From an uncultured Desulfovibrionaceae bacterium (lineage in GTDB: Bacteria > Desulfobacterota > Desulfovibrionia > Desulfovibrionales > Desulfovibrionaceae), in assembly GCA_944325195.1 (NCBI GenBank), contig CALUZB010000004.1, positions 496,001 through 560,000 of the forward strand: DNA of 64,000 nucleotides, read 5' to 3'. Position numbers and translations under genes: made by a program. Below are positions 845-10,608 of the stretch, piece after piece. The notes under the pieces were generated by a model. The model was not told where the DNA came from, ran no database searches, and saw only the letters and a list, made by a program, of their open reading frames with translations. Every line of letters starts with the position of its first letter. Within the stretch, counting starts at the first letter, position 1.

Positions 845-2104
845 TCACCCAAACGTCGGTTCATGTAAAAGCCGGGAAATCTGTTCCACATCCTTGTCAC
901 CGCGTCCGGACAGGCAAACCAGCACACTGGCTTCCCGGGGCATTTCCGCCGCCAGCTTCATTGCTTGGGCCAACGCATGAGAGGACTCTAAAGCAGGTAT
1001 AATTCCTTCTGTACGACTTAAAGTCAGAAAAGCGTCTATTGCTTCCTGGTCACTGGCAAGCAGATAGTCCGCTCGCCCCAGCGCCTTAAGGCTGGCGTGC
1101 TCCGGGCCTACGCCGGGGTAATCAAGCCCGGCTGAAATGGAATATACCGGGGCGACATTACCATGCTCATCTTGCAGAATAAGGCTGCGGTAGCCATGCA
1201 ATACTCCCGGCTTGCCAAAGGTAACAGTCGCCGCGTGTTCACCCAGCTTCAACCCTTTGCCGCTCGGTTCAACTCCAACCAGGCGCACAGATTCATCCTT
1301 TATAAAACCGGAAAATATGCCGATGGCATTGGAGCCGCCCCCCACACAGGCCACTATGCAATCCGGCAACTTGCCGGTCATTTCCAACATCTGCTCACGG
1401 GCTTCTTTGCCAATCACAGATTGAAATGCGCGTACCATCATCGGATAAGGATGCGGGCCTACGGCTGAACCAAGCACATAAAAGGTATTGCCTTTTTGAT
1501 CAATCCAATCTTCAATGGCTACATCCACAGCTTCCTTAAGGGTACGCTGCCCCCGAGTAACGCTTACTACCCTAGCCCCCATCATCTCCATGCGGAATAC
1601 GTTTAATGCCTGGCGCCGGGTATCTTCTTCCCCCATGTACACCACACATTCCATTCCCAGCAAGGCGGCTACAGCCGCAGTTGCCACTCCATGCTGTCCA
1701 GCCCCAGTTTCCGCTATCACTCGTTTTTTACCCATGCGTTTGGCAAGCAGAGCCTGCCCTAAGGCATTATTGACCTTATGCGCTCCAAGGTGGTTCAGAT
1801 CTTCCCGTTTCAGATAGATCTGCGCTCCGCCTATCTGGTCGGACAGGTTGCAGCAATGAAACAGCGGCGTTTTACGTCCGGAATAATTCTGGAGCAAATC
1901 GTTCAGTTCCGTTACAAAAGATGGATCTGCGCTATAATGCTGAAAAGCCTCGTTCAGCTCTTCCAGAATAGGGATTGCCGCTTCCGGCACGTACCGTCCG
2001 CCAAACTCACCAAAATATCCCAGATTGTCGGGTTGAGGGAATTCGTTAGGGTTGAAAGAAAAAATCTCTTCCCCTTTGAAAGGGGCATTTGACGACATGC
2101 ACAT
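845..2104 (-). CDS. trpB: Tryptophan synthase beta chain
   Basis: A 419-residue protein that condenses indole with L-serine to give L-tryptophan using pyridoxal phosphate. The N-terminal motif [13 protein letters not shown], the PLP-lysine segment [13 protein letters not shown], the phosphate-binding GGGSNAIG and the C-terminal LSGRGDKD are all present, and length is normal for TrpB1. The start at 2104 has AGAGGAG six bases upstream; a second ATG lies two codons in. The gene stands alone: trpA and the rest of the pathway are not adjacent, and the next gene downstream is convergent. It is preceded by a trp attenuator and a hairpin covering its ribosome-binding site, so it is probably tryptophan-controlled in its own right. 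An imperfect inverted repeat near 789-828 may end the transcript. Confidence 0.97.
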
Positions 2105-2110
2105 AAAAAA

Positions 2111-2140
2111 CTCCTCTGAATGCTTGTTGCAGCAGAGGAG
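2111..2140 (-). promoter_or_regulatory. Hairpin that masks the trpB ribosome-binding site
   Basis: On the transcribed strand CTCCTCTG (2140-2133) is the exact complement of CAGAGGAG (2118-2111), with a 14-base loop. The right arm is the trpB Shine-Dalgarno sequence, followed by TTTTTT and the ATG. The hairpin could sequester the site or act as a second weak terminator. The left arm can also pair with GCAGAGG in the 5' arm of the upstream attenuator terminator, which would free the ribosome-binding site. Function is inferred from complementarity only. Confidence 0.6.
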
Positions 2141-2147
2141 CTCAAAT

Positions 2148-2181
2148 AAAAAATCGCGGTCAGAGAACCTCTGCCGCGATT
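2148..2181 (-). terminator. trp attenuator (intrinsic terminator)
   Basis: AATCGCGG (2181-2174) pairs with CCGCGATT (2159-2152), with an inner CAGAG/CTCTG extension and a three-base GTT loop (one unpaired A), followed by six T (2153-2148). It lies between the tandem-Trp leader peptide and trpB. The 5' arm can instead pair with GCCGCG..ATT (2217-2207), which overlaps the leader stop codon, giving the alternative antiterminator required for ribosome-mediated attenuation. Confidence 0.88.
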
Positions 2182-2208
2182 AATGCCAAGATATACGCCT
2201 GAAACAAA

Positions 2209-2301
2209 TCACGCGGCCCGAATATAATTCGGGCGCCACCAGTTACCCGCCATCAAAGGCAGATTTAAAACAGCTGATGATTTGTAATAGTTGGATTTCA
2301 T
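2209..2301 (-). CDS. trpL: trp leader peptide with tandem Trp codons
   Basis: An open frame of 30 codons ends in TGA at 2211-2209 and carries two adjacent TGG codons (2241-2236). Its last 14 residues are MAGNWWRPNYIRAA. Two starts are possible: ATG at 2301, which sits at the expected transcription start of the promoter below and would make a leaderless message, or ATG at 2253. Neither has a good Shine-Dalgarno sequence, which favours the leaderless reading. An 8-bp stem (2234-2227 with 2223-2216) begins just after the Trp codons. A ribosome stalled there would block this stem and release the downstream arm to form the antiterminator; a ribosome reaching TGA would cover that arm and permit termination. 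This is the logic of the classical trp attenuator. Confidence 0.82.
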   Translation of the reverse strand: MKSNYYKSSAVLNLPLMAGNWWRPNYIRAA

Positions 2302-2307
2302 GCGTTC

Positions 2308-2335
2308 AATATACCCATGTAAATTATCTTGTCAA
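2308..2335 (-). promoter_or_regulatory. Promoter of the trp leader and trpB
   Basis: TTGACA (2335-2330), a 16-base spacer and TATATT (2313-2308) form a strong sigma-70 type promoter on the minus strand. The expected start point, about seven bases after the -10 box, falls on the ATG at 2301. It lies just beyond the tonB stop codon, so trpB has a promoter separate from the corrinoid operon. Confidence 0.75.
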
Positions 2336-2342
2336 CCCTTTA

Positions 2343-2993
2343 TTATTCTAAGCGAAATTCCACAGGCAGCAGCCGCTCGCTTTGCACAGGCTTCCCCGCT
2401 CGCACAGCCGGTGAAAACCGCCATTTTCCCACTGTATCCAGTGCGCTTTGATCAAGCAAGGAGTAACCGCTGGAATGCTGAACACTTACAGAGACGGGAA
2501 TGCCGTCCGCCGCCACCACGACTTTAAGCACAACTGTTCCTTGCTGCCCGCGTTTGCGGGCAATGAGGGGATAAGGCGGTTTGGGGTTATGCGCCAAAAC
2601 CATCGCCGGGGTTTCCCCAGTCGCGCCACCGGCTAAACCGGCTCCTTTCACACCGCTCGCTTGCCCTGTTGTCTTTTTGTGTTGACTCCTTCGACCGTCA
2701 GAATTCCCTTCCCCCCTGCTCTGCGGATAATCCGATTTGTCTGTGCTCCTTTCCCTATTGAAAGCATTCTTATGCGGATTCCCGGCAATCCCGTCGGAAG
2801 AGCCCGCTTGCTCAACAGCTAAAGGAGCCGCCTCAAATCGGATTTCTATCCCTGCTTGCGCAGAGGGCGCTTCACCCATAAAATTCAACGTCAGGCCAGT
2901 CCGTAAGGTTAAAAAGAGCAGGGCATGGAGCATAGCAGCCGTAATCCAGCAGATCAAATATAAACGGTGTGCTTTTGTACCACACATCATCAC
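2343..2993 (-). CDS. tonB: TonB energy-transducing protein
   Basis: A 216-residue protein with one N-terminal membrane anchor (about residues 10-32), a hydrophilic linker rich in Gly, Ser and Lys, and a C-terminal TonB domain (about 135-216) with YPLIARKRGQQGTVVLKVVV and SSGYSLLDQSALDTVGKWRF. It transmits proton-motive-force energy from ExbB/ExbD to outer-membrane receptors. The start is GTG at 2993, overlapping the exbD stop by four bases. It is the last gene of the riboswitch-controlled corrinoid operon, so it is probably a TonB dedicated to the BtuB receptor encoded in the same transcript. Confidence 0.92.
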   Translation of the reverse strand: MMMCGTKAHRLYLICWITAAMLHALLFLTLRTGLTLNFMGEAPSAQAGIEIRFEAAPLAVEQAGSSDGIAGNPHKNAFNRERSTDKSDYPQSRGEGNSDGRRSQHKKTTGQASGVKGAGLAGGATGETPAMVLAHNPKPPYPLIARKRGQQGTVVLKVVVAADGIPVSVSVQHSSGYSLLDQSALDTVGKWRFSPAVRAGKPVQSERLLPVEFRLE

Positions 2994-3457
2994 CGCGCGC
3001 CTGCTCCAAAGTCCTCATGAGTTTCCACGCCCGGAGATATGCCTAACCTCAGCCCCGACGATGGCGCCGCCTGCAAGGCAATTTCCGTTACCCCCGCTTC
3101 ATTCAGCAGATCCAGCACCCGATACAGGGTCTGATAGTCCAGTTTGCCATCCGCATAAACTTTAACGGAAGGCGGGTGACCACTATTAACAGCATCTGCT
3201 TGTAAAGCTTCAACCAACTCGGATTCCGTTACCGGGAACTTATTCAAATACATACTGCCGTTGGCCGTTATTGAAAGGCTCAACGCCTCTAACTTTATCG
3301 GTTGAGCACGGCTTGATTCCGGCAAATTCAGCCTGGCGGCCTTATCCACCGACATAGTCAGCATCGCATACACAAAAAACACCAGGACCAGAAAGACTAT
3401 GTCCAGCAACGGCATCATTTCCACTCTTGCCCTGTGATGCTGGCGGGGCAATTTCAT
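2990..3457 (-). CDS. exbD: ExbD-type biopolymer transporter
   Basis: A 155-residue protein with a short basic cytoplasmic N terminus, a single membrane helix with the essential Asp (LLDIVFLVLVFFVY, about residues 17-30) and a periplasmic C-terminal domain. This is the ExbD/TolR fold that works with ExbB to use the proton gradient. Start and stop overlap their neighbours (ATGA with exbB, GTGA with tonB), so the three are translationally coupled. Its place beside TonB rather than Pal or TolB argues for ExbD rather than TolR. Confidence 0.9.
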   Translation of the reverse strand: MKLPRQHHRARVEMMPLLDIVFLVLVFFVYAMLTMSVDKAARLNLPESSRAQPIKLEALSLSITANGSMYLNKFPVTESELVEALQADAVNSGHPPSVKVYADGKLDYQTLYRVLDLLNEAGVTEIALQAAPSSGLRLGISPGVETHEDFGAGAR

Positions 3458-4074
3458 TGCTGCTTACACTCAACTTTATCCTGCAGCATCTCCAGTCGGG
3501 TGGCATAGCTTTCCAGGATGTCCTGAGCGCTTTCAATGCGCGAATTGAAATAATTAAATGGAAACAGAGCGCCAATGGAAATGATCAAGCCGGCGGCCGT
3601 GGTTATCAGGGCTTGCGCTATCCCGCCGATTACCGCGTGCGGGTCGTCTGTCCCGGACTGAGCCAGCATATCGAATGAGCTGATAATGCCGGTTACAGTG
3701 CCGAGAATGCCCAGCATTGGAGCGGCGGTAATAATTGTATCAAGAATGCCCATACCGCGCCGCATTCTTTGCACTTCAAGCAAAGCCGCCGCCTCCATAG
3801 CCTTGGTCATTGAAAACCGACTCTGAACAAGGCCGCAAAGAAGCATACGTGTTACTGCGCCGCCCGCCTCCGGGTGTTTCAACCCGATTTCAGAAAGGCA
3901 AGCATCTTCTTTATCCCGACACTCATTCAATAACTTTTCGGCAGCTTTCCGATCATGTTCCACATTAAAGCTGCGCCAGAACCAGGCTCTTTCCAACACT
4001 ACTGTCAAAGCTGTAATAGAACAAAGCAGCAACGGCCACATTACCGGACCGCCGGATTGAAAGAGTTCCCACAT
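3454..4074 (-). CDS. exbB: ExbB-type MotA/TolQ/ExbB proton channel
   Basis: A 206-residue inner-membrane protein with three hydrophobic segments (about residues 10-30, 100-130 and 150-175) and the conserved run LGILGTVTGIISSFDML of the ExbB/TolQ family. With ExbD it forms the proton channel that energises TonB. It starts ten bases after the cbiZ stop and overlaps exbD by ATGA, placing it within the corrinoid operon. Confidence 0.92.
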   Translation of the reverse strand: MWELFQSGGPVMWPLLLCSITALTVVLERAWFWRSFNVEHDRKAAEKLLNECRDKEDACLSEIGLKHPEAGGAVTRMLLCGLVQSRFSMTKAMEAAALLEVQRMRRGMGILDTIITAAPMLGILGTVTGIISSFDMLAQSGTDDPHAVIGGIAQALITTAAGLIISIGALFPFNYFNSRIESAQDILESYATRLEMLQDKVECKQQ

Positions 4075-4083
4075 GGATATACC

Positions 4084-5334
4084 TCATATATTCAAATCAC
4101 CACGCCTGAGCAAACCGTAAACCAAGGCGTTCAGAGATGCCAACAGGGTTGGGTCAACCCGCGCGTCTTCCAGAACCGGCTCAATGCGGCTTATCCGCTC
4201 CCCGGCCAGCTTTGAAGCAACCAGCAGATTCCAGTCTGCAAGAGCAGCCGCTCCAACCGGAACCAGTCCCCGCGAGACAGCATCACTGTGGGCCAAAGCC
4301 ATAGCCGTAAATTCCATATAATAAGGGTCAGACAACAGCAGCAGCAAAGCATCAGCCAAGCACTGCTTTGCAGCCGCATCCCGGATTTTCGGAGAGTTGA
4401 GCACTAGCTGACGCACATCCACGCGGCGCTCCGCCAGCCGCTCCAGTATATCTCTGTCGGCAGTCAGGTTATTCTGTTTTTCCACAGCATCGATAACCGC
4501 CTGATAAACCGCTCTGCCGGTCAACTCGCCCAGCTTGGTATGCGGCCCGGCCATTGTTGCCGGGGCGCCCTCCCCAGCCACGACGATAATATTGTCGGTG
4601 CCTGTGCCGGTGGCCGCTTTTCCGCTGTAACTGCTGCGCACATCCAGGTCTTGCAGAGCGGCGGTTTTGGCTTCTGTAGCCACAATTATCATCTGGCACA
4701 TGGCCGCTGCGGAAAGATGCCGCGAGCTTAGAATAATCAGGTTAATCGTGCCTGGCTCCCAAAATCCGCCCGGGTCGTGTCCAACCCGCACGGCATTGGT
4801 TTCCACTCCAGCAGTGGCAAGTACCCCCAGCCTTATTTCACAACCGTTCTCCGTGGCGTTTGTTTCCACATAAGCATATCGGCCAACATCCGCACCGGTA
4901 TATAAAAAACTGCTGACGGCCGGGTCAAGCTGCAGCAGACGCATACAGTTCAGGTTCATTTGCTCCAGCCCCAGCGTATGGGCTGTCTGCCAGCTCTCCG
5001 GCGGACTATAATGATTACCCACAGTCAGCACGCCGGATTGCCAGCCATGCAGAGTGGAGAGCACCTGCTGGGGCTGCCGGAACTTAATCAGCAAAGATTT
5101 GGCAGGACGCCCGAATTGTATTTCCTCGGTCAACCAGGCCTCCCGAACATAACCAAAGCCGATTTTGAGAGCAGTTTCCGCCAACACCCGGTTATTTTCC
5201 TCTGAGAATATGCGGGAAGAACCGAATTCCGCGTGAACAGGGCGAGCGCTCTGAACAAACAGAACACCCGCCGCAATCAGAATTACGATCAGTTTGGCGT
5301 TTATCCGCCCGGCCAGACATAAAAGGATATTCAC
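4084..5334 (-). CDS. cbiZ: Exported adenosylcobinamide amidohydrolase (CbiZ family)
   Basis: A 416-residue protein whose middle (about residues 160-290) carries CbiZ motifs: TAGVETNAVRVGHD, GTINLIILSSRHLS, a TEAKTAALQDLDVRSSYSG segment and ATGTGTDNIIVVAG. CbiZ cleaves the aminopropanol arm of adenosylcobinamide to give adenosylcobyric acid and so salvages incomplete or foreign corrinoids. Unlike the usual cytoplasmic enzyme of about 220 residues, this one begins with a charged stretch and a hydrophobic segment ending near residue 35 (VHAEF), a likely signal peptide, and has about 120 extra C-terminal residues. It would therefore act in the periplasm, between BtuB and BtuF. The start is GTG, three bases after btuB. 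Confidence 0.85.
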   Translation of the reverse strand: MNILLCLAGRINAKLIVILIAAGVLFVQSARPVHAEFGSSRIFSEENNRVLAETALKIGFGYVREAWLTEEIQFGRPAKSLLIKFRQPQQVLSTLHGWQSGVLTVGNHYSPPESWQTAHTLGLEQMNLNCMRLLQLDPAVSSFLYTGADVGRYAYVETNATENGCEIRLGVLATAGVETNAVRVGHDPGGFWEPGTINLIILSSRHLSAAAMCQMIIVATEAKTAALQDLDVRSSYSGKAATGTGTDNIIVVAGEGAPATMAGPHTKLGELTGRAVYQAVIDAVEKQNNLTADRDILERLAERRVDVRQLVLNSPKIRDAAAKQCLADALLLLLSDPYYMEFTAMALAHSDAVSRGLVPVGAAALADWNLLVASKLAGERISRIEPVLEDARVDPTLLASLNALVYGLLRRGDLNI

Positions 5335-5337
5335 CGC

Positions 5338-7329
5338 CTAGAACTCATATTGCAGACCAAGGTAAAATGAACGCCCCGGCATGGGATAGGCGAAAATGGT
5401 CTGATAGTCCTCATCAAAGATATTTCTGACTTCGCCTTTCACGCTGAGTGTTCCTGCATTTTCAAAGTTATATATGCTTTTGCTCACAAACAAGTCAACC
5501 ACTGTAGTCGGACCGACGGTTACAGGGCCCCCATCCAGCCAATAATTCGCGGCCGTGCCGAAATCCGTCTGCTTCTGCTTACCGTAATAAGTGAACCTTA
5601 AATCTGCCGTCATTCCCCAATCAGGCTGCTCGAAATTCACACCATAAGCAATGTCATGCCGACTCACGTTTTCCAGCCTGTTCCCATTTTCATCTTCATA
5701 CTTGAAAAGTGTAGTCATATTTAAATAAGGACGCAAGGTAAACGGCCAGTCGAACAGTTCCCCCAAATCGTAGCCGGCCTGCACTTCCAGACCCTGGAAT
5801 CTGGATTTGCCGTCAAGGTTATAATACTGGCTGTCCCAACCGACTCGCCGGGTGGCGATTTTATTTTCATAGTCGGTTCGGAAATAAGTCAGGCCCAGAT
5901 TGAGCGTGTTTTTATTTATCTCAAAGCCGATATCCCAACTTCTGCCCTCCTCCGGCTTCAAGTCGGAATTACCCAGATAATTAGCCCAGCCGGAGTCAAA
6001 TCCCAACATCTCCTGCGCCTGCGGAACCCGATAGGATTCACCGTAATTAGTGCGCAAAGTCAGCCAGTCAAGCGGGTTCACGGCCAGACCTATACTGGGA
6101 GTGGTATGGTTCAGGTCGGCGTTTTCCCCCTCATAGCGCAAGTCATAGTCATCATAACGCACCCCACCGGACAAAACCAGCAATTCATCCATAAATGCAA
6201 GCTTGGCCAGCAGAAAAGCGCCGGTGTTATAATATTTATTCCGCTGCTGACTGGTAATAACATCCGTATCGTAATAGAGGTAATCCACTCCCCCGGTCAG
6301 GGTGAGGAACTGCTTGTTCCAACTTACCTGCCCCTGCACGCCCTGATAATCAGTTTCCGATTCGTAACGCCCCAACCCCATGGGATTGGGATCTTCACTC
6401 AAATAATTATCCTGCCCATTAAAATAACGGGCCTTCCACTTAAGCCCCAAATCGGAATAACCACCGTCATAGATGAAGTCCATGGAGTAATTATTACGGT
6501 CGGTGTAAGACAAAAGATCATTTTGCCGAAGTTCATTGGGTGCTCCGGCCTTTTCATTACGTACCCCCAGCATAATCATGCCCAACCGGTTTTCCGGATT
6601 GAAGCTGTAACCCAGATTAAGCGAATAACCCAACCGGTAATCGTTGCCGGTATTATGATAAGTATGTCCACCGCCGGTTTTGTAATCGTGCGCAGTCAAC
6701 CAGGATACTCCACCGGAAAAATCAACTCCAAGCCCTTGGGCGGCCAGTTCCGCCTGGGTTTTATAGGTATCCCAGCTTCCCCCCCCGGCCTCAAGGCGCC
6801 CGGCATACTTCTTAGCCTCGCCGGAAGCATCCGGACCCGGCCCCCGTTTGGTGATTATATTGATTACCCCGCCGATGGCCGAACTGCCGTATTGAACAGA
6901 GCCGGGACCACGGATAATTTCAATCCGTTCAATATTGACCATGGGAACCATGGAAAGATTATCCGTGCCTATTCTCCGCCCGTCTATCAATACCAGCACA
7001 GAGCCCTGCAGGTCATTTCCCATGACTGAAGAACGCACGCCTCTTATAGCTACCTGCCCCAATCCCTCATTTCCGGAATATGAGTTCACCTGAATACCAT
7101 AATTGCGCAACAGACCGCCCAAATCATTGTATTGATTTTTGGCAATTTCCTCCTGGGGGATAATCGTTACTGACTGAGTTACAGAACGCGCCGGTTCCTC
7201 AACCCGTCCGGCTGTAACCACCACCTTATCAAGAATTTCAGGCTCCTGCCCCCAGGCAGTGGCTGCCCCAAACAAAACCGCTGCAAGACTTAGCCCCACC
7301 AACACTCCGCTTTTGATGCTTCCTTTCAT
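5338..7329 (-). CDS. btuB: TonB-dependent outer-membrane corrinoid receptor (BtuB-like)
   Basis: A 663-residue protein with a cleavable signal peptide ending near AWGQ, a TonB-box-like stretch (DKVVVTAGR), a plug domain (about 45-165, including GPGSVQYGSSAIGGVINIITKRG) and a beta-barrel ending in aromatic Phe (YLGLQYEF), as expected for an outer-membrane porin-like receptor. Substrate is inferred from the operon: a cobalamin riboswitch, BtuCDF, CbiZ and TonB/ExbBD. AGGA lies upstream of the ATG. A heme or siderophore ligand cannot be excluded from sequence alone. Confidence 0.9.
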   Translation of the reverse strand: MKGSIKSGVLVGLSLAAVLFGAATAWGQEPEILDKVVVTAGRVEEPARSVTQSVTIIPQEEIAKNQYNDLGGLLRNYGIQVNSYSGNEGLGQVAIRGVRSSVMGNDLQGSVLVLIDGRRIGTDNLSMVPMVNIERIEIIRGPGSVQYGSSAIGGVINIITKRGPGPDASGEAKKYAGRLEAGGGSWDTYKTQAELAAQGLGVDFSGGVSWLTAHDYKTGGGHTYHNTGNDYRLGYSLNLGYSFNPENRLGMIMLGVRNEKAGAPNELRQNDLLSYTDRNNYSMDFIYDGGYSDLGLKWKARYFNGQDNYLSEDPNPMGLGRYESETDYQGVQGQVSWNKQFLTLTGGVDYLYYDTDVITSQQRNKYYNTGAFLLAKLAFMDELLVLSGGVRYDDYDLRYEGENADLNHTTPSIGLAVNPLDWLTLRTNYGESYRVPQAQEMLGFDSGWANYLGNSDLKPEEGRSWDIGFEINKNTLNLGLTYFRTDYENKIATRRVGWDSQYYNLDGKSRFQGLEVQAGYDLGELFDWPFTLRPYLNMTTLFKYEDENGNRLENVSRHDIAYGVNFEQPDWGMTADLRFTYYGKQKQTDFGTAANYWLDGGPVTVGPTTVVDLFVSKSIYNFENAGTLSVKGEVRNIFDEDYQTIFAYPMPGRSFYLGLQYEF

Positions 7330-7349
7330 AATTCATTCCTAATCTTAAG

Positions 7350-8348
7350 TTAAAAGGCGCTGCCGCCTTTATTACAGCGAAATAAAATCCACAGAAAAAA
7401 AGGAGCCCCGATCAACGCAGTCACTATGCCGATGGGCAGTTCTGCCGGAGCCAGAACAGAACGGGCAACCAGATCGCAAAGAGCGAGAAAGCACCCGCCA
7501 CCCAAAAAAACAGCCACCGACAGAGAGCGATGCGTTACAGCGCTCCCCAGCCAGAGTCTGCAAAAATGCGGGACCATCAGCCCGACAAACCCGATTGGCC
7601 CGGCCACAGATACAATTGCCGCTACCAACAAGGAACTCACACCGAATAACTGCAACTTCACCGATTTTACTTCCACCCCCCGGCTCGCAGCCAATTCCTC
7701 ACCAACAAGCAACAGATCTATTTCCGAAGCAAGCCGACGCAAAAACAGAGCGCAGGCCAGAACTACGAAACACAAATCCGGCAGGCGGAGCAAATCCAGG
7801 CCGGTAAGCGACCCCATCAACCAGTGCATTATCCGCAGGGCGTCGTAAGAGGCGCTTAGATATTGAATAAACATAACCAGACTGGAAAAAAAGAAGTTGA
7901 TAATCACCCCGGCCAGCAACATTACAGGGGTGGAAAAACCGCCCCGGGCCCGGGTGATCAGGTAAACCAGCAGCATGGAAACCAGACTGCCGGCAAACGC
8001 GGCCCCCATGCCCCCCAAGCTTGCCAGCAGTCCCCCGCCGCCAGCCGCGCCCAGACCGAAAAACAGGGCGGCCCCAAACGACGCTCCGCTGGAAGCCCCC
8101 AAAGTAAACGGGCTGGCCAGAGGGTTCCTGAACATGGCCTGAAATACCATGCCCGCCATGGACAAACCAGCTCCGGCCAAGAACGCCGCGACAACCCGGG
8201 GCATACGCGCCCGCCAAAAGACCTCGGCATCCGGGCTTCCCCACTTAAAGATTGCATCCGGAGCAATAAAACTCATACCCCCGAACATGGACAACCCGGT
8301 GAGCAGAATACAAATGCCGCCTAGCCATAAAATTTTCTTCCGCAGCAT
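7350..8348 (-). CDS. btuC: Corrinoid ABC transporter permease
   Basis: A FecCD/BtuC-family permease of 332 residues from ATG 8348, with about ten hydrophobic segments and the family signatures PRVVAAFLAGAGLSMAGMVFQAMFRNPLASPFTLG and VAGPIGFVGLMVPHFCR. It forms the inner-membrane channel that moves corrinoid delivered by BtuF. An in-frame TTG at 8384 would add 12 residues and overlap btuD, but the ATG has GGGG eight bases upstream and begins with a typical basic-plus-hydrophobic N terminus, so I prefer it. Confidence 0.92.
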   Translation of the reverse strand: MLRKKILWLGGICILLTGLSMFGGMSFIAPDAIFKWGSPDAEVFWRARMPRVVAAFLAGAGLSMAGMVFQAMFRNPLASPFTLGASSGASFGAALFFGLGAAGGGGLLASLGGMGAAFAGSLVSMLLVYLITRARGGFSTPVMLLAGVIINFFFSSLVMFIQYLSASYDALRIMHWLMGSLTGLDLLRLPDLCFVVLACALFLRRLASEIDLLLVGEELAASRGVEVKSVKLQLFGVSSLLVAAIVSVAGPIGFVGLMVPHFCRLWLGSAVTHRSLSVAVFLGGGCFLALCDLVARSVLAPAELPIGIVTALIGAPFFLWILFRCNKGGSAF

Positions 8349-8362
8349 AACCTTCGCCCCGC

Positions 8363-9157
8363 TCAGACCAAAACCACCGGACAACCGTGCCGCGGGTGCC
8401 TGAAAATGGTAAACTCATATTTGAAAGCCCGGTTCAGGATCTCCCCGTCCAGCAACCCCGCTGTTTCTCCGAAATATAGCTGACTGCCTTCACCCAGAAC
8501 CAATATTTTGTTTTCAGCGGCAAAAGCCTGGTTCAGCTCATGGGTTATACAAATCAGAGTCAGACCTTCAGTCTTGTTCAGCCTGGACAGCAACTGATTC
8601 AGCTCTGCAGCATGTCTGGGATCGAGGAAGGCAGTGGGCTCGTCCAGCAACATGATTTCAGCTTCCTGAGCAAGCGCGGCTGCCACATAAGCCCGCTGGC
8701 GCTCTCCCCCCGACAACGCCCATAATGGACGGGCAGCCAATTTATCCATACTGGTCGCCCGCAAAGCCCGGGCCACAACTTCCCGGCTGGTTTGCGAACT
8801 TTCAGAATTCCCGCCTTTGCGGTAGGAAAACCTGGACAATTCCACAAAGGCCGACACCGTAAACGGAGGTATCCACCCTTCGGCCTGAGGCACATATGAA
8901 AGCAGACGAGCCAGTTCAACACGACTGTATTCAGCCAGAATACGCCCCTTAAGCACAATCTCACCTGTGGGTTCCCCCCGCTCATGCAAACGGAGTAATG
9001 CTTTAAGTAAGGTGGACTTCCCGGCTCCATTCGGTCCGACAACGTATAAAAAATCACCCTTATTCAAACTGAAATTCAAACCCTGGAGGACCTTTTCCCC
9101 CTCAAAAGCAAATCCGAAATTATTTAACAAAAGTATGGGCTTAACGGACTTATTCAT
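8363..9157 (-). CDS. btuD: Corrinoid ABC transporter ATP-binding protein
   Basis: A 264-residue ATPase with Walker A GPNGAGKST (about residues 41-49), signature LSGGERQRA, Walker B IMLLDEPTAFLD and switch His in CITHEL. It drives BtuC. The ATG at 9157 lies eight bases inside the end of btuF, so translation is probably coupled. The family also includes iron-siderophore ATPases; the riboswitch and neighbouring cbiZ make corrinoid the best substrate. Confidence 0.93.
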   Translation of the reverse strand: MNKSVKPILLLNNFGFAFEGEKVLQGLNFSLNKGDFLYVVGPNGAGKSTLLKALLRLHERGEPTGEIVLKGRILAEYSRVELARLLSYVPQAEGWIPPFTVSAFVELSRFSYRKGGNSESSQTSREVVARALRATSMDKLAARPLWALSGGERQRAYVAAALAQEAEIMLLDEPTAFLDPRHAAELNQLLSRLNKTEGLTLICITHELNQAFAAENKILVLGEGSQLYFGETAGLLDGEILNRAFKYEFTIFRHPRHGCPVVLV

Positions 9158-10160
9158 TTATCACCGCCCTTTCCGGGGAATAAGCTCCGGGATTCTCCGG
9201 CATTATTTTATCCAGGCATTCCGGCTCTCTCCACGCTTGGCCGGGCAGTACCGCCGGGACAACGGGAGAATGCAGAATGCAAGACAGGATATTTAAAGTT
9301 TTGGTAAAGCGCGGGCCGGGCACAGTATGCATCTCATCGTTTAAAATAAACACCCGTCCATTCTTAACTGCATTAACAGTGCTGAGGCCCGACCACTCCC
9401 GACCTAATGCCGCTACCTCTTTCCTGCTCAACCCGGACGGCACAACGTCAATGATCACGTCGGGATTCAAATAAATAATCGCTTCCTGCGAAAGGCGCGG
9501 ATAGGCAATTTTTCCCTCATAGACATTCCGTCCGCCTGCCAACTCAATAAGTTCATCATAAAAACCGTCGCGCCCGATTGCCGAAATTTCATTTATCCGC
9601 CCAGCCCCCTGAGCAGAACGCATCACGGAGAAGAGCACACCGGGCCGTGGTTTTCCCAACGACTTCTCCTTTGCCGCCGTCATTTCCTTCTCAATTTCCG
9701 TCAGGAGTTTTTCTGCCGGCTCCGGGTTGCCGGCCAAAGCGCCAAGCCGTTGAATTCCCTGGACAAGGCCCGCCAAACTGCGCACTTCAACGCCCAGTGT
9801 GGGGATGCCCAGCCGCTCAAGCTGAATTTTATTCCAGACTTTATCTTCAGGAATTACCACCAACCCGGGGCGAATCCTCAATAATGCTTCCACATTCAAC
9901 TCACTGAACCCGGCAACTTTCGGCAGAGGCGATACTTCCGGCGGATACGTGCAAAAGCGCGTAACTCCAACCACATTCGGGCCAAGCCCTACCGCAAATA
10001 AGGTTTCAGTAATGCTGGGGGCAAGGGAAACAACACGCAGTTTGTCCGGCGGGGTAACCGTTATCGTTGGAGAGGCTAACCGCTCCAAGCCCAACCGCCC
10101 GCCTAAACAGCAAAGGAATAAAAGCAGAAGTATAACAGTGAATTTCACAGCCTGCACCAA
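9150..10160 (-). CDS. btuF: Periplasmic corrinoid-binding protein (BtuF-like)
   Basis: A 336-residue class III solute-binding protein with an N-terminal hydrophobic segment (about residues 5-20) and the two-lobed fold marked by LRVVSLAPSITETLFAVGLGPNVVGVTRFC, VEALLRIRPGLVVI and SQEAIIYLNPDVIIDV. It would pass corrinoid from the periplasm to BtuCD. The start is TTG at 10160 with AAAGGGAG nine bases upstream; GTG one codon later is the alternative. It is the first gene behind the riboswitch. The C terminus runs about 40 residues past the last clear family motif. Confidence 0.88.
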   Translation of the reverse strand: MVQAVKFTVILLLLFLCCLGGRLGLERLASPTITVTPPDKLRVVSLAPSITETLFAVGLGPNVVGVTRFCTYPPEVSPLPKVAGFSELNVEALLRIRPGLVVIPEDKVWNKIQLERLGIPTLGVEVRSLAGLVQGIQRLGALAGNPEPAEKLLTEIEKEMTAAKEKSLGKPRPGVLFSVMRSAQGAGRINEISAIGRDGFYDELIELAGGRNVYEGKIAYPRLSQEAIIYLNPDVIIDVVPSGLSRKEVAALGREWSGLSTVNAVKNGRVFILNDEMHTVPGPRFTKTLNILSCILHSPVVPAVLPGQAWREPECLDKIMPENPGAYSPERAVINE

Positions 10161-10285
10161 AGCACACTAACTCCCTTTAAACTTACTTCATCCCTGGAAC
10201 GGCCTGAGCAGTAGCTAGGATAAAGCAGGCGCAATGCCTATTGGGAAGACAGCATGACTTTCGATTGCCAGCCGGAAGACAAGAC

Positions 10286-10319
10286 AAAAAAAGCGGATTG
10301 ACGACAAGCGTCAATCCGC
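10286..10319 (-). terminator. Riboswitch expression-platform terminator
   Basis: GCGGATTGACG (10319-10309) pairs perfectly with CGTCAATCCGC (10303-10293) around a five-base loop, followed by seven T (10292-10286). It lies between the cobalamin aptamer and btuF, where it would stop transcription when corrinoid is bound. Confidence 0.9.
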
Positions 10320-10380
10320 AATCCGTTTTAATTGCAGTGCCGGATTCCCAAAGCCAACCTCGAGCCGGAAATCGAAAATC

Positions 10381-10562
10381 AAGGCAGGTCTTCTGGCTCC
10401 CGGATCTCAGACGAGCGGTTCAATATGGAAACAATCACTCCTATTGCCAAACCTTCCCGTATTTACAGTGGCCGGCCGCTTTTTCAGGCCTGCTGGCAAG
10501 TCTCCCCGGTTACAGCGGCGGGTCCGCAACGGTTTTGCACCGTTTTCCCTTTTAAAGCCCGA
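10381..10562 (-). promoter_or_regulatory. Cobalamin riboswitch
   Basis: On the minus strand the aptamer shows, in order, GGTGCAAAACCG, GCGGACCCGCCGCTGTAA, AGACTTGCCAGCAGGCC, the core GGCCACTG, GGGAAGG and the 3' B12 box AGCCAGAAGACCTGCC. These are the conserved elements of the adenosylcobalamin-class riboswitch. It sits downstream of a promoter and upstream of an intrinsic terminator and the corrinoid uptake operon, so it should repress the operon when cobalamin is plentiful. Confidence 0.95.
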
Positions 10563-10579
10563 CGGGCTACCTTAGCTGG

Positions 10580-10608
10580 ACTATAGTAAAGCCGTCTGGG
10601 CAAGTCAA
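10580..10608 (-). promoter_or_regulatory. Promoter of the corrinoid operon
   Basis: TTGACT (10608-10603), a 17-base spacer and TATAGT (10585-10580) lie just upstream of the riboswitch aptamer on the minus strand. Confidence 0.7.

Follow-up and report, generated by a model that had tools for sequence, protein, structure and literature searches.

The window analysed here, a 64,000-nucleotide stretch of a contig from an uncultured Desulfovibrionaceae bacterium, carries on its minus strand a gene for the tryptophan synthase beta chain, trpB, whose product passes the NCBIfam trpB equivalog TIGR00263 with 608.7 bits against a cut-off of 392.45. The gene is monocistronic, since the nearest downstream gene lies on the other strand, and its downstream neighbours vary between genera. 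Just before the trpB promoter, and on the same strand, ends a likely B12-uptake locus (window positions 2343-10589), which is headed by a cobalamin riboswitch (10589-10366, minus strand) and contains in order a permease, a BtuB-like receptor, a CbiS-like gene, exbB, exbD and tonB. Between tonB and trpB are a promoter, a leader open reading frame (ORF) and a set of mutually complementary segments (Table 1).

Table 1. Features of the trpB leader region, in window coordinates (SD, Shine-Dalgarno sequence).
Feature	Position	Strand	Details
Sigma-70-type promoter	2308..2335	minus	-35 TTGACA 2335-2330, 16-nt spacer, -10 TATATT 2313-2308
Leader ORF, MKSNYYKSSAVLNLPLMAGNWWRPNYIRAA	2209..2301	minus	ATG 2301-2299, TGA 2211-2209; 30 codons
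Helix 0:2b	2204..2285	minus	ACAAATCA (2285-2278) with TGATTTGT (2211-2204); closes the 1:2 hairpin
Tandem Trp codons, TGG TGG	2236..2241	minus	Abut segment 1 on its 5' side
1:2 anti-antiterminator hairpin, GCGCCCGAAT-TAT-ATTCGGGC-CGC	2213..2236	minus	From fold and pair types across 41 genomes
1:2 stem core, GCCCGAAT/ATTCGGGC	2234-2216	minus	Extendable to 2236-2213
Segment 2, GCCGCG-tg-ATT	2207..2217	minus	5' strand of the 2:3 antiterminator; holds the leader stop codon
Segment 3, AATCGCGGC	2173..2181	minus	Common to 2:3, 3:4 and 3:5
3:4 intrinsic terminator	2148..2181	minus	Hairpin 2181-2152, six-T tract 2153-2148; precedes trpB
Segment 5, CCTCTGCTGC	2129..2138	minus	Complements GCGGCAGAGG (2177-2168), in the 5' arm and loop of the terminator
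SD-sequestering hairpin	2111..2140	minus	CTCCTCTG (2140-2133) with trpB Shine-Dalgarno CAGAGGAG (2118-2111); from fold
trpB, tryptophan synthase beta chain	845..2104	minus	ATG 2104; TIGR00263

The promoter agrees with the consensus at 11 of 12 positions in a promoter scan. The two Trp codons of the leader sit where a stalled ribosome would cover segment 1, and segment 2 contains the stop codon. The leader ORF, the mutually exclusive 1:2/3:4 and 2:3 helices, the U-tract terminator and this codon geometry, which together form the anatomy of a ribosome-mediated trp attenuator, are all present. The leader folds with a free energy of -59.5 kcal/mol, compared with -40.4 +/- 3.7 kcal/mol for dinucleotide shuffles (z -5.1, 0/200). 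Besides the helices of attenuation, the 5' part of the leader ORF pairs with the stretch just after segment 2 to form helix 0:2b; this pairing is present in the minimum free energy fold of the window, yet is weaker there than in most relatives. A generic terminator scan of the window did not list the 3:4 hairpin, an omission probably explained by a one-base bulge.

In about 57 genomes (two overlapping sets) the spacing from TTGAC to the leader ATG is 34-40 nt, with a mode of 36. Transcription is predicted to start at about 2301-2302, on the leader ATG or no more than 1-2 nt from it, and because the spacing places the predicted start at the ATG, this ORF is probably leaderless. The leader RNA of Sinorhizobium meliloti trpLE(G) starts with the trpL ATG, and transcriptional repression is absent there (PMC7298713). 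The trpB leader shares with that system a leaderless Trp-codon leader (here predicted) and attenuation, but the S. meliloti attenuator controls trpE(G), whereas the target here is trpB, and trans action is hypothetical.

We collected relatives of trpB and compared their upstream regions. Leaders ending in WW or WWW, the 1:2 stem and a ACCGCGGCAG...CTGACCGCGGTTTTTT terminator were found again across genera; every aligned relative has WW or WWW in its leader, and both the placing of this motif near the leader end and the position of the ORF relative to the promoter are kept from genus to genus. Three Trp codons are usual in the aligned leaders; the leader of the window has two, is long, and is among the most divergent of those aligned. 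When 23 relatives were used to build a covariance model, with the window excluded, that model recovered the element in the 64 kb with E = 3.9e-8 (the next match having 0.11), and across the window's genome the trpB leader was its sole match at E <= 0.01. With a model that included the window, the attenuator was found in 80 of 288 genomes of the family, representing 21 of 44 genera, with 67 of the 80 genome matches at E below 1e-11. All 44 strong matches whose surroundings were examined lie directly upstream of an orthologous trpB; a few weaker matches are not before trpB. The attenuator is missing from trpB in L018, L024, L027 and L028. L018, from the same genus as L008, L015 and L016, retains the promoter upstream of trpB and has lost the leader, a natural attenuator deletion. 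The other three are the genomes from genus g40 whose trpB upstream regions were examined; one g40 genome has a related leader before trpE.

The stems have also changed in concert. At position 3 of the 1:2 stem G-C, C-G, U-A and A-U pairs all occur among 41 genomes. In genus g8 (L008, L015, L016, L128 and L130) segments 2, 3 and 4 carry matching substitutions (C to U in segment 2, G to A in segment 3, C to U in segment 4), so that GCCGCG/CGCGGC/CCGCG becomes GTCGCG/CGCGAC/TCGCG with both antiterminator and terminator kept, and in L160 the three have been exchanged as a set (GGTCG/CGACC/GGTCG). At register 0, 92% of cells in the 2:3 strands are paired, compared with 22-54% when one is slid. In a swap test over 41 genomes with 5000 permutations, in which each segment was paired with its own partner or with that of another genome, own partners were favoured for 2:3 (z -5.3), 0:2b (z -10.1) and terminator:5 (z -11.9), with 0/5000 permutations as good, while the control pairs 0:5, 2b:5 and 0:terminator gave z values of -0.9, -1.3 and +1.4. 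Partners exchanged between close relatives also pair well, which makes the test conservative in that respect, and it is not a phylogenetic test. The window's own 0:2b and 2:3 pairings are average against swapped partners, at ranks 29 and 28 of 41. Misalignment of the 1:2 arms of L015 and L016 leads MAFFT-based pair counts to underestimate covariation, so counts anchored on structure and partner swaps were used.

These comparisons bear on whether the hairpins and the WW leader could be a chance arrangement, or the ordinary terminator of the tonB/exbBD operon, without any part in trpB regulation. Such an origin would accord with the position of tonB, which is read from the same strand and ends shortly before the element, at 2343, and with the generic terminator scan, which showed no excess of sites. 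The element, however, follows its own promoter, trpB is the neighbour shared by every strong match examined, and the Trp codons and covarying stems are conserved; the comparative data refute this explanation, which we consider exceedingly improbable.

We are confident, instead, that the element is a ribosome-mediated transcription attenuator that tunes trpB by the supply of tryptophanyl-tRNA. Transcription would begin on the leader ATG or beside it, giving a leaderless RNA on which a ribosome would load. When charged Trp-tRNA is scarce, the ribosome would stall at the two Trp codons and cover segment 1, allowing 2:3 to pair and transcription to read through into trpB. With ample tryptophan, a ribosome reaching the stop codon would block segment 2, so that 3:4 forms and transcription ends near 2148. 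Without translation, the 1:2 hairpin closed by 0:2b would hold segment 2, and 3:4 would again form. When equilibrium folding was carried out with the ribosome at different codons, 3:4 and a hidden SD won every time. The 2:3 helix is short and equilibrium always prefers 3:4, so the choice must be kinetic, made during transcription.

The first-pass annotation of this DNA had proposed a classical trp attenuator controlling trpB alone. Its promoter, Trp-codon leader, 1:2, 2:3 and 3:4 pairings and run of six T all lie within a base or two of where it had placed them, and the geometry it described is borne out by the anatomy, the conserved Trp codons and the compensatory changes in the stems. The alignment of relatives' upstream regions that it had advised showed Trp codons kept and stems compensated in dozens of genomes, and control of trpB alone agrees with the monocistronic gene and with the neighbour common to the strong matches. 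Some of its descriptions need amending. The four segments of a classical attenuator are there, but 0:2b and segment 5 make the architecture richer; and control of a lone trpB, which it had called unusual, is not peculiar to this genome, given its presence in nearly half of the family's sampled genera.

Segment 5 is located between the terminator and the trpB SD. Its pairing with the terminator (t:5) amounts to -25.1 kcal/mol, with a z of -4.1 in the window against shuffled partners. Terminator loops differ freely between genomes and segment 5 tracks them (GTGAA/TTCAC, GATTAC/GTAATC, GGGGTAC/GTACCCC and CGAACT/AGTTCG). The same region can pair with the SD itself; in the window this hairpin has -19.2 kcal/mol, the duplex z is -6.1 and the SD is fully paired at equilibrium. 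Strong 5:SD pairing is seen in the window and in L017, L020, L025, L147, L148 and L155 (z -1.7 to -6.1), and own 5:SD pairs are better than 4988 of 5000 permutations. Hiding of the SD by segment 5 is not a rule for the whole family, the pattern being confined to a minority of relatives.

For the window, these pairings raise the prospect of a two-gate attenuator, in which the same strands control first transcription and then translation of trpB; we put this forward tentatively, as an unlikely proposal. On read-through, with 2:3 formed, the free terminator loop would capture segment 5 as it emerges and leave the SD open. In transcripts that leak past a formed 3:4 hairpin, segment 5 would cover the SD and trpB would stay silent. 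The 5' part of the leaderless leader would later be buried in 0:2b, permitting only one or a few rounds of sensing. In the Bacillus trp operon, one signal, acting through TRAP, governs both termination and an SD-blocking hairpin. The possible likeness lies in the pairing of transcriptional and translational gates, but those of Bacillus are protein-mediated and only RNA helices and the ribosome are proposed here. Given its Trp codons and ribosome geometry, the present leader does not call for a TRAP protein.

A rather better prospect, to which we give a little less than an even chance, is that attenuation is real and segment 5 does not gate the SD, t:5 serving as a processing mark, as a stabiliser of the read-through mRNA, or in an action in trans of the released leader on trpB mRNA. 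In keeping with this, t:5 is conserved even in genera that leave the SD open, such as g22 and g8, and the equilibrium fold has 3:4 and a hidden SD irrespective of ribosome position; a trans-acting trp leader RNA is also known, Sinorhizobium rnTrpL acting on trpDC (PMC7298713). What speaks against it is the strength of 5:SD pairing in the window and the six relatives named above, and its superiority over nearly all permuted partners. The trans variant faces the added difficulty that each trpB mRNA has its own copy of the loop in cis, at a higher local concentration.

The stand-alone trpB is not the only tryptophan synthase gene of this bacterium. A complete trpE-GD-C-F-B-A operon lies elsewhere in the same genome (G000:C4, about 90.8-97.2 kb) with its own second trpB, 55% identical to the stand-alone gene. 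Ahead of the operon is a tandem pair of Trp leaders, MIATANNIFTISGSHFVWWRGCLRPLI and MNQQFVSSIFNWRWQPCIIT, and each is followed by a terminator. They lie upstream of trpE at about 90280-90815 of G000:C4 (L112 5265-5815), a WW leader followed by a WRW leader, and none of the relatives examined has two clear leader-terminator pairs before trpE. Since the operon also carries Trp-codon leaders, both trp loci should sense the same shortage of Trp-tRNA. Searches of the window's genome for TrpR and for tryptophanase found neither, and the negative result for TrpR accords with control by attenuation.

Five genomes at least 95% complete have an attenuated trpB and no trpA or trpC: G034 and G098 (96-97%), G039 (99%, one contig), G011 (98%) and G008 (95%). 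In the four of these tested for it (G034, G039, G011 and G008; G098 lay outside that sample) trpE is absent as well. Because such near-complete relatives keep the attenuated trpB in the absence of trpA and trpC, a role for the stand-alone TrpB in salvaging indole to tryptophan gains support and is plausible on this genomic evidence. Indole salvage by TrpB is known elsewhere, being described in bifidobacteria and, for TrpB paralogues, in Thermococcus kodakarensis in the part of the source consulted (PMC11085991); the use by TrpB of free indole outside the TrpA-fed pathway would be common to those organisms and this one, and that part of the source mentions no attenuator. Conversely, the ordinary trpB equivalog score and the presence of trpA in the window's genome would suit a gene that supplies the TrpAB complex with a spare beta subunit, and not a salvage enzyme. 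This we think somewhat unlikely, given that relatives without trpA keep the stand-alone TrpB and that the operon has its own trpB. For the salvage enzyme, induction of trpB in tryptophan shortage would most likely serve to convert free or scavenged indole, with serine, to tryptophan, and trpB should be switched on only when tryptophan is short. Of the independent indole-to-tryptophan control suggested by the first-pass annotation, salvage is thus favoured by the retention of trpB without trpA and trpC, but an independent signal is not, in view of the Trp leaders of the operon.

Leaders of this kind also occur before other genes. In genus g9 this leader type occurs a second time (E about 1e-10), in L145 (G008:C2:404548-404685) and L146 (G049:C229:3354-3489); the copy of L145 precedes a gene that by eye resembles one for phenylacetate-CoA ligase, a hint that tryptophan controls an aromatic-acid ligase there. 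In other families of the phylum the model matched WWW leaders followed, again by eye, by genes for tryptophanyl-tRNA synthetase (L166), DAHP-synthase (L165 and L167) and a TIGR01415-type TrpB-like protein (L169). Across the phylum, Trp attenuators may commonly control scattered single genes.

Attenuation by means of Trp codons is textbook knowledge, and trpL of Escherichia coli is the classical four-segment attenuator of a trp operon. The present leader shares with it the tandem Trp codons, the 1:2, 2:3 and 3:4 helices with a U tract, and the stall and stop geometry. It differs in its lone trpB target, its apparently leaderless ORF, the stop codon inside segment 2, the extra helices 0:2b and t:5, and a genome in which TrpR was not found. 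In Actinobacteria, attenuators have been predicted upstream of trpS and of the split trp operons trpB1EDGC and trpB2A (PMC1262725); Trp attenuation of partial trp loci is common to both cases, but the targets there are operons or a tRNA synthetase gene and here a monocistronic trpB. Against Rfam (4227 models) the leader had no match at gathering score and nothing relevant at E up to 10, and the leaders of nine relatives likewise had no match at gathering score. The literature searched, which took in few subscription papers, so that an earlier mention is possible, held no relevant trp attenuator from Desulfovibrio. As far as we found, what is new is a lone trpB as the target in many genera, a predicted leaderless geometry of the leader in this family, and a pair of extra coevolving helices.

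The family that includes Desulfovibrio thus has a conserved Trp-sensing leader that is absent from Rfam and is tied to a lone trpB that outlasts loss of the remaining tryptophan pathway. It offers a handle on two questions: whether a fifth segment lets a ribosome-mediated attenuator control translation as well, and whether members of the family recycle indole to tryptophan.
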